Source: Rhizobium sp. Q54 (GTDB taxonomy: Bacteria; Pseudomonadota; Alphaproteobacteria; ATCC43930; CGMCC-115725). From it: a DNA stretch of 40,938 nucleotides. Below the pieces are notes generated by a model. It was given only the letters and a program-made list of their open reading frames with translations, was not told where the DNA came from and ran no database searches. Location: positions 1 to 40,938 of the forward strand of contig CAMATN010000034.1 of the NCBI GenBank assembly GCA_945861155.1, given 5' to 3'. Both the position numbers and the translations under genes were made by a program. Position 1 is the first letter of the stretch. The number at the start of each line of letters is the position of its first letter. This document shows, piece by piece, positions 25,789 through 31,216 of the stretch.

Positions 25789-26168
25789 GCATCATCGATA
25801 CTGTGACCCTGACCCGCACTGAGTACGAGGCGCTGATAAGTGACATCGAAGATGCGGAAGATTTGGCGGCCGTTGCTGCCGCCGAAGCACGCGAAGCCGC
25901 GCTCGGCAAGAAGATCGCTCGCGCCGACTATCTCTCGATCGATCTCGTCAAGCGCCTCTCGCAAGGCGAGCACCCGATCCGCGTATGGCGGGCGCATCGG
26001 GGCATGACCCGGGAGGTGCTTGCCGCCGCCGCTGGCGTGGCGCCGAGCTATGTGAGCGAGATCGAGACTTGGCGCAAGCCCGGCAGCTTTGCCGCGATCG
26101 CCAAGCTGGCGACGGCGCTGCGGGTGTCGCTCGACGACATCGCAGCCTGGCTGAAGGCCGCTAAATGA
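25785..26168 (+). CDS. XRE-family antitoxin
   Basis: This 127-residue protein pairs with the RelE-like toxin. The N-terminal part (LTRTEYEALISDIEDAEDLA) is acidic and helical and resembles toxin-binding segments of antitoxins. Residues about 65-122 form a helix-turn-helix: PIRVWRAHRGMTREVLAAAA, GVAPSYVSEIETWRKPGSFA and AIAKLATALRVSLDD. It should neutralise the toxin and repress its own operon, probably at the palindrome 25505-25519. The 4-nt overlap implies translational coupling. Confidence 0.9.
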   Translation: MSIIDTVTLTRTEYEALISDIEDAEDLAAVAAAEAREAALGKKIARADYLSIDLVKRLSQGEHPIRVWRAHRGMTREVLAAAAGVAPSYVSEIETWRKPGSFAAIAKLATALRVSLDDIAAWLKAAK

Positions 26169-26259
26169 GAGTAGGCCCGCTCGCTGTTGCCGCGACGGTC
26201 GGGTTGAGCTAAACCGCGCCTCCGTTTGTTGGCCTCCATCAGTTGATTGAGCGAAGACG

Positions 26260-28227
26260 ATGCAGCAGCAACCCTCCACCGCCGAGGAGTCGGGCCACCG
26301 GGCGGTTCCGGCGCCAATCGCCGTGACCTTGCCGGACGGCAGAAGCCGCCAGTTTCCCGGCCCGATTACCGGCGCCGAACTTGCCGCGGCGATCGGTCCC
26401 GGCCTCGCCAAGGCGGCGATCGCGGTCCGAATCGACGGCAGGCCGCACGACCTCGCCACGATCATCGACCATGATTCGACGATCGCGATCATCACCCGCG
26501 ACATGCCGGAGGGGGTCGAGATCCTGCGCCATGACGCGGCGCATGTGATGGCCGAGGCGGTCAAGGAATTGTACCCCGAAACCCAGGTCACCTTCGGCCC
26601 GGCCACCGAGACCGGGTTCTATTACGATTTCGCCCGCGAGACGCCGTTCACCCCCGAGGACCTCGCGCGGATCGAGGAGCGTATGCGCGACATCGTGAAG
26701 CGCGACGAGCCGATCGCCCGCGAGGTGTGGGAGCGCGACCGCGCGGTCGCGTTTTTCGAGAGCGTCGGCGAGCGCTACAAGGCCGAGTATATCGGCGAGA
26801 TCCCGGCGCACGAGGAGATCAGCCTCTACCGCCAGGGCGATTTTGTCGATCTGTGCGTCGGCCCGCATCTGCCGTCGACCGGCCGGCTCGGCCAAGCCTT
26901 CAAGCTGATGAACGTGGCCGGCGCCTATTGGCGCGGCGACCCGAACAACGCGCAATTGCAGCGCGTCTACGGCACGGCGTGGCCGAACCAGAAGGAGCTC
27001 GACCAGCATTTGTTCCGGCTCGAGGAGGCCGAGCGCCGCGACCATCGCCGCCTGGGGCGTGAACTCGACCTGTTCCATTTGCAGGAGGAGGCGGTCGGCA
27101 GCGTCTTCTGGCACCCAAAGGGCTGGACGCTCTACCGCGCGATCGAGAGCTACATGCGGCGCCGGCTCGAAAAAGTCGGATATCAGGAGGTCAAGACCCC
27201 GCAACTGCTCGACCGCAGCCTGTGGGAGGCCTCCGGCCATTGGGAGAATTTCCGCGAGAACATGTTCATCGCCGAGAGCCGCGACGAGCGGGTGCTCGCG
27301 GTCAAGCCGATGAATTGTCCCGGCCACGTCCAGATCTTCCGCAACCGGCTGCGCAGCTATCGCGAATTGCCGTTGCGGCTCGCCGAGTTCGGCAGCTGCC
27401 ACCGCAACGAGCCCTCGGGCGCGCTGCACGGCATCATGCGGGTGCGCGCCTTCACCCAGGACGACGCGCACATCTTTTGCACCGAGGACCAGGTCACCGC
27501 CGAGGCCATCGCCTTCTGCGAGCTGCTACTGTCGATCTACCGCGATTTCGGGTTCGAGGACGTCGCGATCAAATTCGCCACCCGGCCGCCGGTGCGTGCC
27601 GGCGCCGACGCGACATGGGATGTCGCCGAACAAAACCTTGAAGCAGCGGTCAAGGCCGCCGGGCTGGCCTATACGCTTAACCCCGGCGAGGGCGCCTTCT
27701 ATGGCCCCAAGCTCGAATTCGTGCTGCGCGACGCGCTCGGCCGCGATTGGCAATGCGGCACCTTGCAGCTCGATTTCGTGATGCCCGAGCGGCTCGGCGC
27801 CTTCTATATCGGCGAGGACGGCGCCCGCCATCGACCCGTCATGCTGCACCGCGCGATTCTGGGCTCGTTCGAGCGCTTCATCGGCATCCTGATCGAGCAT
27901 TACGCCGGCAATTTCCCGCTATGGCTGGCTCCGGTCCAGGCCGTCGTCGCCTCGATCACCGACGAAGCGGCGGCTTACGCCGACGAGGTCGCGGGCGAAC
28001 TTGCCGCCGCCGGGCTGCGCGTCATCGCCGATACCGGCAACGAGAAGATCGGCTACAAGGTGCGCGAGCACAGCCTCGCCAAGATCCCGGTCATTATCGC
28101 CGTCGGCCGGCGCGAGGCGGAGCAGCGCGGCGTGTCGCTGCGCCGGCTCGGCAGCCCGGCGCAGGAAGCCCTTGCGCTTACCGACGCCGTTGCTAAATTG
28201 AATGCTGAGGCAGCCCCGCCGGGCTAG
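26260..28227 (+). CDS. thrS: threonyl-tRNA synthetase
   Basis: This class II synthetase charges tRNA-Thr. The 655-residue product has a TGS domain (about 18-80), an editing domain with H91-DAA-H95 and C199-VGP-H203, and a class II core. The core zinc ligand C353 lies in MNCPGH. Motif 2 is [12 protein letters not shown], and [18 protein letters not shown] contains a zinc histidine and motif 3. The anticodon-binding domain begins near [16 protein letters not shown]. The length is normal. A possible upstream promoter (TTGCCG 26187, TAAACC 26210, 17-nt spacing) is weak. infC follows after 60 nt. Confidence 0.97.
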
Positions 28228-28274
28228 CTTCAACCGTCTGCGCGCGAACGCCAAACGGCCTGTTCAACCACCGA

Positions 28275-28290
28275 GAGGAGAACCTACATA
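28275..28290 (+). promoter_or_regulatory. Shine-Dalgarno site and AUA initiation codon of infC
   Basis: GAGGAG (28275-28280) is followed by 7 nt and then ATA (28288-28290), in frame with the IF-3 coding sequence. The first in-frame ATG, at 28309, has no such site in front of it. IF-3 discriminates against non-canonical starts, and infC in many bacteria uses AUU for feedback control; AUA here would act the same way. Confidence 0.75.
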
Positions 28291-28824
28291 GCCAGACCAC
28301 CGTTCAATATGACGCCGACCCGCGAGGGGCCCCGCATCAACGAGGAGATCGCCGTGATGCGCGTGCGTCTCGTCGATGAGCGCGGCAACATGGTCGGGGT
28401 TGTCGGGCGCGCCGAAGCGCTCACCATGGCCGCCACTGCCGGCCTCGACCTGGTCGAGATCGCGCCCGGCGCCGATCCGCCGGTGTGCAAGATCCTCGAT
28501 TACGGCAAATTCAAATACGAAGAACAGAAAAAGAAGAACGAAGCTCGCAAAAAGCAGAAGATCATCGAGGTCAAGGAAATCAAGCTGCGTCCGAGCATCG
28601 ACGACCACGATTACGACGTCAAGATGCGCAGCATGAACAAGTTCATCGAGGAAGGTGACAAGGTCAAGGTGACCATGCGGTTTCGCGGGCGCGAACTGGC
28701 CCACCAGGAACTCGGCATGAACGTCTTGATGCGGGTCAGGGACGACCTCGACACGATCGCCAAGGTCGAGCAGATGCCGCGCATGGAAGGCCGCCAGATG
28801 ACGATGGTGGTGGCGCCGAGGTAG
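28288..28824 (+). CDS. infC: translation initiation factor IF-3
   Basis: IF-3 binds the 30S subunit, enforces start-codon fidelity and prevents premature subunit joining. From ATA at 28288 the product is 178 residues, beginning (I/M)[20 protein letters not shown]. The ARPPF-like start matches alphaproteobacterial IF-3 N-termini. The N-terminal domain includes [14 protein letters not shown] and [20 protein letters not shown], the linker is Lys-rich ([14 protein letters not shown]), and the C-terminal domain has [20 protein letters not shown] and [12 protein letters not shown]. Starting at the ATG at 28309 loses seven residues and lacks a ribosome site. rpmI and rplT, often downstream, are not here. 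Confidence 0.93.
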
Positions 28825-28835
28825 GCCGAACCAGA

Positions 28836-28852
28836 CTGTCGTCCCGGCGAAG
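28836..28852 (+). repeat. solitary family A repeat arm
   Basis: TGTCGTCCCGGCGAAGG starts 11 nt after the infC stop and matches the left end of the family A palindromes with one clear difference (TGTCGT for TGTCAT). No matching right arm follows, so this is a decayed or solo half element. Confidence 0.55.
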
Positions 28853-28925
28853 GCGGCGCCCCGCCTCTCACTGTCTGGCAAATCGATCGGTGGGTTCGGT
28901 CGTCGCCCCCTACGCTCTAATGATG

Positions 28926-29026
28926 GTCATTCCGGGGCCGCCCGAAGGGTGGAACCCGGAATCCATAAACACCGGCCTCTGGAATATGGATTCCGGGTTC
29001 GCCGCTGCGCGGCGCCCCGGAATGAC
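28926..29026. repeat. palindromic repeat, family B copy 1
   Basis: This 101-bp element begins GTCATTCCGGGGC and ends GCCCCGGAATGAC. Its inner arms are AACCCGGAATCCAT and ATGGATTCCGGGTT, around a centre reading AAACACCGGCCTCTGGAAT. It lies between the 3' ends of infC and the convergent CoA-transferase gene. The interior is nearly identical to the copy at 31085-31187, while the shoulder sequences differ. Confidence 0.9.
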
Positions 29027-29074
29027 AGCTGTGTGGACAGACGAGTTAGTCGATCGCTTTCTTGGCCTCTCAAT

Positions 29075-30226
29075 TCACCCGATGACCTTCGAGTCACGCA
29101 GCTGCTGCAATGTGGCGCGGTCGTAGCCGAGCAGCGCCGACAGCACTTCGTCAGTGTGCTGGCCGGGAGTCGGCACCGGGGCGACGCGGCCGGGGGTCTT
29201 CGACATCTTGATCGTGGCGCCCGGCAGATGCATCTCGCCGGCCAGCGCGTCGGGCATCTTGACCAGCATCTCGCGCTCCCACAGATGCGGGTCCTCGGCG
29301 GCCTGCGGGATGGTCTTGACCGGCGCGACCGGGATCTCGGCGGCCAGCAGTGTCGAGACGATGTGGTCGACAGTGTTCTCGGCGCACCATTTGGCGACCG
29401 CCAGCTTGCGTTCGTCGGCGTGCCCGACCCGGCTGGTGAACCCCGCGGCGCTGGCATTCTCGTCGCCGGTCGCGATGCGGATCAGCCGGCTCGCCATCTC
29501 GCGCCCCGAGGCGGAAATGACGACATGGCCGTCCTTGGCCTTATAGGGCGGCCGACCGCCCTCGCCGCCTTCCTGGCCGGTGGCGAGATAGTAGGAAAGC
29601 GGGATCTCGACCATCGTGAACGCCGAATCCAACAGACAGCAATCGACCAGCTGGCCCTCGCCGGTGCGATCGCGGTGGCGCAGCGCCGCCAGCGTACCGA
29701 TCGTCGCGTGCAGCGAGGTGTAGCGGTCGACGAGCGAGGTCGCGGCGCCGAGCGGTGTCCCGACCGGCGCCCCGGTCAGCGTCATCAGACCGCTCATCGC
29801 CTGGCCGAGCGGGTCGAAGGCCGGGCGCTCGCGATAGGGGCCGTATTGCCCGAAGCCCGACACCGAAACGAGGATGATGTCGCGCTTCAGCTTGCACAGA
29901 TCGTCATAGCCAAAGCCCATCTTCTCCATGACCCCGGGGCGGAAATTCTGCAGCACGATATCGGCGCTCGGCACCATCGCGGCGAATATCTCCTTGCCGC
30001 GCTCGGTGCGCATGTCGAGGCACATGCTCTTCTTGCCGCGGTTGTAGACCGAGAAATAGACGCTCTGGCCGCGCACCATGGGCTCCGATTTGCGCGTCTC
30101 CTCGCCGCCCAGTTTCTCGATCTTGATAACTTCGGCGCCGAGATCGGACAGGATCATCCCGCCGCGCGGGCCCGCCTGGTACCGCGCCAGCTCCAAAACC
30201 CGTACGCCGTCGAGGGATCCGCTCAT
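29075..30226 (-). CDS. class III CoA-transferase (CaiB/BaiF family)
   Basis: This 383-residue protein transfers CoA between carboxylic acids through a glutamyl/aspartyl thioester-type mechanism. The N-terminus LDGVRVLELARYQAGPRGGM is diagnostic. Next come LSDLGAEVIKIEKLGGEETR and VLQNFRPGVMEKMGFGYDDL. The catalytic Asp is D167 in SLVDRYTSLHATIG, and GEGQLVDCCLLDSA follows. The substrate is unknown. It is divergent from a crotonase-fold gene (88 nt between starts), so the pair likely acts in the same acyl-CoA route. Family B repeats flank the two genes. Confidence 0.93.
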   Translation of the reverse strand: MSGSLDGVRVLELARYQAGPRGGMILSDLGAEVIKIEKLGGEETRKSEPMVRGQSVYFSVYNRGKKSMCLDMRTERGKEIFAAMVPSADIVLQNFRPGVMEKMGFGYDDLCKLKRDIILVSVSGFGQYGPYRERPAFDPLGQAMSGLMTLTGAPVGTPLGAATSLVDRYTSLHATIGTLAALRHRDRTGEGQLVDCCLLDSAFTMVEIPLSYYLATGQEGGEGGRPPYKAKDGHVVISASGREMASRLIRIATGDENASAAGFTSRVGHADERKLAVAKWCAENTVDHIVSTLLAAEIPVAPVKTIPQAAEDPHLWEREMLVKMPDALAGEMHLPGATIKMSKTPGRVAPVPTPGQHTDEVLSALLGYDRATLQQLRDSKVIG

Positions 30227-31084: not shown

Positions 31085-31187
31085 TGTCATTCCGGGGCGC
31101 CGCGCAGCGGTGAACCCGGAATCCATAAACACCGGCTTCTGGAATATGGATTCCGGGTTCACGCCTGCGGCGTGCCCCGGAATGACA
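31085..31187. repeat. palindromic repeat, family B copy 2
   Basis: This 103-bp element begins TGTCATTCCGGGGCGCCG and ends CGTGCCCCGGAATGACA. The centre matches copy 1 in the same orientation apart from a C/T difference (ACCGGCTTCTGG here, ACCGGCCTCTGG there). It starts 8 nt after the crotonase stop and precedes the 3' end of the convergent HpaB-like gene. Confidence 0.9.
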
Positions 31188-31216
31188 GACGGGAACGAGA
31201 GTCTCTCCCGATTCGC

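Follow-up and report, generated by a model that had tools for sequence, protein, structure and literature searches.

The window, that is, the whole stretch of 40,938 nucleotides from Rhizobium sp. Q54 that was analysed, carries thrS and, 60 nt further downstream, infC encoding IF-3 (Table 1). The infC product scores 252.5 bits with TIGR00168 (cut-off 60) and also matches PF05198 and PF00707, both IF3 domains scoring above their cut-off, and IF3_C has only this single match in the genome. Eight of the nine E. coli IF-3 positions looked up, which we take to be functionally important, are identical here, including Y75, R99, R131 and R168, while position 34 differs. The closest named relative, taken from the best 80 of 580 matches, belongs to an uncultured alphaproteobacterium with 91% protein identity. 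Just 3' of infC, at 28926-29026, lies a palindromic repeat with 42-nt arms that are 83% complementary and 17 nt apart. This repeat gives 79 matches in its own genome with both strands counted, corresponding to about half as many places, and has a second copy in the window at 31086-31188; it resembles dispersed palindromic elements of intergenic regions.

Table 1. Coordinates of the features at the infC locus, given as positions in the window.
Feature	Position	Strand	Remark
thrS	26260..28227	+	TIGR00418, 682.9 bits; upstream of infC; start predicted
thrS stop codon TAG	28225-28227	+	in the infC frame
Shine-Dalgarno sequence GAGGAG	28275..28280	+	
Spacer AACCTAC, 7 nt	28281-28287	+	between GAGGAG and ATA
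ATA start codon of infC	28288..28290	+	presumably read as fMet
infC, IF-3, 178 aa from ATA	28288..28824	+	TIGR00168 and both IF3 domains
First downstream ATG	28309..28311	+	taken as internal Met8, not as start

The original prediction placed GAGGAG 7 nt ahead of an in-frame ATA and proposed this ATA, instead of the first ATG, as the start of infC; the description of the site is exact. The ATA is followed by the codons GCC AGA CCA CCG TTC AAT ATG, corresponding to ARPPFNM, and the frame stays open as far as the TAG at 28822-28824. Upstream of it, ATG, GTG, TTG and CTG are all absent from the 20 in-frame codons that separate the thrS stop from the ATA, and as the thrS stop lies in the infC frame itself, there is no translation run-in from upstream. 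The gene therefore presents an AUH codon behind a Shine-Dalgarno sequence without any canonical start that bears one. A standard gene caller would instead start at the ATG at 28309, which is the first ATG, GTG or TTG of the open reading frame and would give an IF-3 of 171 residues. Such a protein could work, since the IF3_N domain begins at residue 17 of the 178-residue form and thus past this ATG. No GGAG-like motif or other ribosome site was found ahead of this ATG, just as had been claimed.

Near relatives speak to the same choice. All 40 order-mates with a match carry either ATA (31) or ATC (9) as the called start. Three of them (L117 with ATA, L120 with ATA and L121 with ATC) are identical to L048, L052 and L049, respectively, and were left outside the order-mate tally, which hence counts 37 loci (29 ATA, 8 ATC). 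Among the 27 tallied order-mates with equal spacing, the position of the downstream ATG is never occupied by ATG, whereas one order-mate with TTG at this position counts toward a start there and two have CTG. When the relatives are aligned as originally proposed, the codons from 28288 to 28308 are conserved as protein. Comparison of codons +2 to +7 with the 27 order-mates yields 63 identical, 54 synonymous and 45 non-synonymous pairs without any stop, which argues against a start at the downstream ATG, whereas codons -14 to -5 yield 24 identical, 16 synonymous and 230 non-synonymous pairs, three of the latter being stops. Furthermore, in 139 of 238 loci the first ATG, GTG or TTG past the called start lies at or beyond the conserved Asn of the N domain, which speaks against an internal ATG start, and we regard translation from the ATG at 28309 as very unlikely. 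The proposal of an AUA start thus holds on the placement of the Shine-Dalgarno sequence, the conservation in relatives and the coding stretch after the ATA. An ATG turned into ATA by faulty sequencing or assembly might be considered for a window taken from an assembly of 226 contigs; given ATA at the homologous place in all seven genus-mates and ATA calls in 167 of the 246 distinct class loci described below, this is hardly credible. As a side observation, the infC of a Roseomonas (L106) carries CTG where its relatives carry ATA.

For the comparison across Alphaproteobacteria, infC loci were aligned at the conserved Asn of the N domain, the question being which codon the Shine-Dalgarno sequence points to. 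The alignment comprised the window plus 310 loci, 311 sequences in all, with L001 and L002 excluded as the window's own gene. Removal of 21 sequences that were identical in the compared stretch left 290, namely 246 from Alphaproteobacteria, including the window, and 44 others. Rule A chose among ATG, GTG, TTG, CTG, ATA, ATC and ATT by length and spacing of the Shine-Dalgarno match only, while rule B allowed any of the 64 codons located 5-7 nt past the aligned end of the strongest match. Rule A called ATA in 167, ATC in 51, ATT in 17, ATG in three, TTG in one and CTG in one of the 246 loci, leaving six without a call, and in 235 of them the called ATA, ATC or ATT stands behind a Shine-Dalgarno match of 4 bases or more. 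Rule B found these three codons in 195 of the 246 loci (ATA 148, ATC 38, ATT 9) and no NTG in frame; in the two other frames it gave ATA, ATC or ATT once and never, and NTG once each.

The set of 246 loci is rich in near relatives, and therefore we give more weight to an even class sample. The 80 named loci, being the best 80 of 580 matches (ATA 60, ATC 18, ATT 1, CTG 1), are weighted towards near relatives. For the even sample, 192 genomes were searched, 189 of which had a match; 132 loci were used among the matches listed (about 150 at most), so that fast-evolving lineages are under-sampled, and seven of these (5 ATA, 2 ATC) were removed as identical to other loci. The remaining 125 loci comprise 88 ATA, 27 ATC, 3 ATT, four doubtful ATG and three without a call; one further genome of the same draw (G198, with locus L302 and ATT) stands outside the 125. 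Eleven loci for which the rules gave no clean call, or a call against homology, were labelled by hand for the even-sample, tree and codon counts: L223 as ATA, L199 and L187 as ATC, L106 as CTG, L215, L231, L236 and L237 as questionable ATG, and L224, L239 and L242 as no call; before hand labelling, rule A itself had called ATG for L223 and TTG for L199. In the gene bodies of the even sample, ATA makes up 75 of 1132 isoleucine codons compared with 88 of the 118 AUH starts, an excess with a binomial P of 2e-77 if the loci were independent, which they are not. The assumption that AUA is the rarer infC start hence does not apply to this group, with the qualification that 13 of 17 further alphaproteobacterial loci picked from a phylum-wide draw have ATT and the other four ATA. 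Judged by N-termini and genome size, many of these ATT users probably belong to Rhizobiales and Rhodobacterales. The even draw spreads over families and species-rich ATT-using families weigh little in it; AUA is usual with families sampled evenly, and by species count it might not be.

Across the 118 even-sample loci with ATA, ATC or ATT, the ten codons ahead of the called start (-10 to -1) contain 74 scattered stops, whereas codons +1 to +9 are free of them. Ala occupies residue 2 in 69 and Arg residue 3 in 92 of these loci. Of 238 loci, 29 have an in-frame stop immediately before the start codon, and 104 lack any ATG, GTG or TTG in the frame that is open up to the conserved Asn. Counting against an AUH start are 62 of the 238 loci, in which the open frame extends upstream to a further in-frame ATG, GTG or TTG. 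An imperfect control for the rule was provided by thrS, which gave NTG in 33, ATA, ATC or ATT in seven, CTG in two and no call in 26 of 68 usable loci; seven of 68 compared with 235 of 246 for infC shows that the rule does not create AUH calls by itself. The E. coli K-12 control was called as ATT, as known. Unlike infC, thrS in this group (window position 26260, L032-L111) often has no Shine-Dalgarno match at its start (in 26 of 68, none precedes any of the candidate starts). A C just before the infC start (77 of 118) was dropped as a possible signal, as called thrS starts are alike in this respect (C before 17 of 33).

Four alphaproteobacterial infC genes (L215, L231, L236 and L237) have an apparent ATG start, three of the four in genomes of 1.4-1.9 Mb, and no Shine-Dalgarno sequence was found before the ATG of L236 and L237. 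These are possible losses of the non-AUG start, and with doubtful ATG calls in four of 125 class members a canonical start seems to be tolerated.

The start of E. coli infC is one of the known systems that the window resembles closely in arrangement: the gene is the same, thrS lies upstream and a Shine-Dalgarno sequence precedes an AUH codon. The two differ in the codon itself, AUA in the window and AUU in E. coli, and in the spacing from thrS, which is 60 nt here and 3 nt there. In E. coli, infC is followed by rpmI and rplT, and L20 controls this infC-rpmI-rplT operon. The only rplT match of the genome studied here lies on another contig (contig 69, 17685-18005) and the gene order is not kept, therefore E. 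coli-type L20 control is not expected to reach this infC. Changing AUU to AUG reportedly abolishes autocontrol in E. coli (Butler, 1987), which counts against a start codon that acts without feedback. Initiation at codons other than AUG, GUG and UUG is disfavoured by IF-3 (PMC4611024; PMC5472188), and in E. coli infC this discrimination makes a feedback loop (PMC5472188).

Modelled on this AUU start, the window infC would work as follows. A good Shine-Dalgarno sequence would bring the 30S subunit to the AUA, with which the initiator tRNA would pair imperfectly at the third base, and IF-3 would destabilise such imperfectly paired initiation complexes. Plentiful free IF-3 would then allow little new IF-3 to be made, while scarce IF-3 would let the AUA be used more, resulting in a negative feedback loop. 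Ribosomes of this organism probably initiate at the AUA, as judged from the sequence comparison, and repression of this AUA by IF-3 is suggested by analogy with E. coli. Taken together, we consider it highly probable that translation of infC begins at this AUA (28288), presumably under IF-3 negative feedback, as proposed. Around the start, no fold was seen in the leader that was better than in shuffled sequences (113-nt and 61-nt stretches, z 0.74 and 0.81), Rfam gave no match in the window at gathering score, and no site resembling a promoter or terminator turned up in simple scans of 26000-29200.

A different reading accepts the AUA as start and lets it merely fix a low constant level of IF-3 without feedback. 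Reporters of three other genes in S. aureus fit this view: expression from non-canonical starts was about 10% of that from AUG in poor medium and up to 30% for one of them in rich medium (PMC13009471). In addition, the texts covered contain no measured IF-3 feedback in Alphaproteobacteria. On the other side, a GTC-started Streptomyces protein is lowered by extra IF-3 (PMC5472188), and together with the E. coli result this makes a start without feedback unlikely in our view.

Other bacteria also start infC at codons other than AUG. A Ribo-Ret study reports AUA as the infC start of S. aureus and proposes that autoregulation acts there in the same way (PMC13009471); gene and start codon are thus the same as in the window, while the phylum is another one and the evidence is experimental there and comparative here. 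Further papers give ATC as the infC start of Streptomyces (PMC5472188), ATT as that of Xanthomonas with peptides found upstream of the annotated start (PMC5559785), and AUA among the listed bacterial start codons (PMC4611024); Streptomyces and Xanthomonas share the non-AUG start with the window and differ in the third base. Within the class, plasmid copies of infC in Azospirillum (L313-L316) have ATA at the homologous place. It is annotated as the start in three of four records (NZ_CP007796, NC_013860 and NZ_CP033323), whereas NC_016588 of A. lipoferum 4B contains the ATA but has its annotated start at an ATG located 23 codons downstream. The neighbours of these copies differ from those in the window; two of the four records show rpsU on the upstream side. 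Work by Babic in 1997 is said to be on Rhodobacter sphaeroides pifC.

Outside the class, rule A called ATT in 14, ATC in 14, ATA in 13 and GTG in one of the 44 other Pseudomonadota loci, with no call in two; these loci derive from 43 of 108 non-alphaproteobacterial genomes of the phylum draw plus E. coli. Rule B is weaker there, giving ATA, ATC or ATT in 18 of 42 and no NTG. On the IF3 tree of the 125 even-sample loci at least 28 start-codon changes are needed, and one reconstruction, on a tree that is short and poorly resolved, has 18 changes from ATA to ATC, two to ATT and three to ATG. Three of 23 changes leading to G corresponds to P 0.026 if the three third bases are equally likely, the ATG calls being doubtful. 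We do not claim clade-by-clade inheritance of ATA versus ATC, as the start-codon states show little phylogenetic signal (28 changes compared with a mean of 31.2 and a minimum of 25 in 300 label shuffles). Likewise, users of ATA and ATC do not differ clearly in the GC content of the locus retrieved (medians 0.582 and 0.568, respectively). Together with the four doubtful ATG among the 125 loci, changes of the third base between A, C and T that seldom lead to G fit selection for IF-3-repressible codons, which is suggestive. Whether AUA is the ancestral and default infC start of Alphaproteobacteria, with drift among A, C and T and G kept out by selection for IF-3 repressibility, is a reading on which we are evenly balanced, the ATT in 13 of the 17 further loci having made it slightly less likely.

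In its basic form, the start of infC at a non-AUG codon with feedback by IF-3 is well known, and the window infC belongs with the known non-AUG infC starts open to IF-3 repression. Less familiar are the wide use of AUA in the class and the rarity of G as its third base; a statement that AUA is usual for alphaproteobacterial infC was not found in the titles and abstract openings of the open-licence literature. Gene callers restricted to ATG, GTG and TTG will mis-start IF-3 in this class, as seen from the 104 loci without such a codon before the conserved Asn and from the one Azospirillum record with an internal ATG as annotated start. With AUA spread so widely, a preference of one AUH codon over another becomes testable in many species, and if AUA is indeed ancestral, the class would represent a natural experiment on AUH codons that are equal for feedback, together with lineages that lost the feedback.
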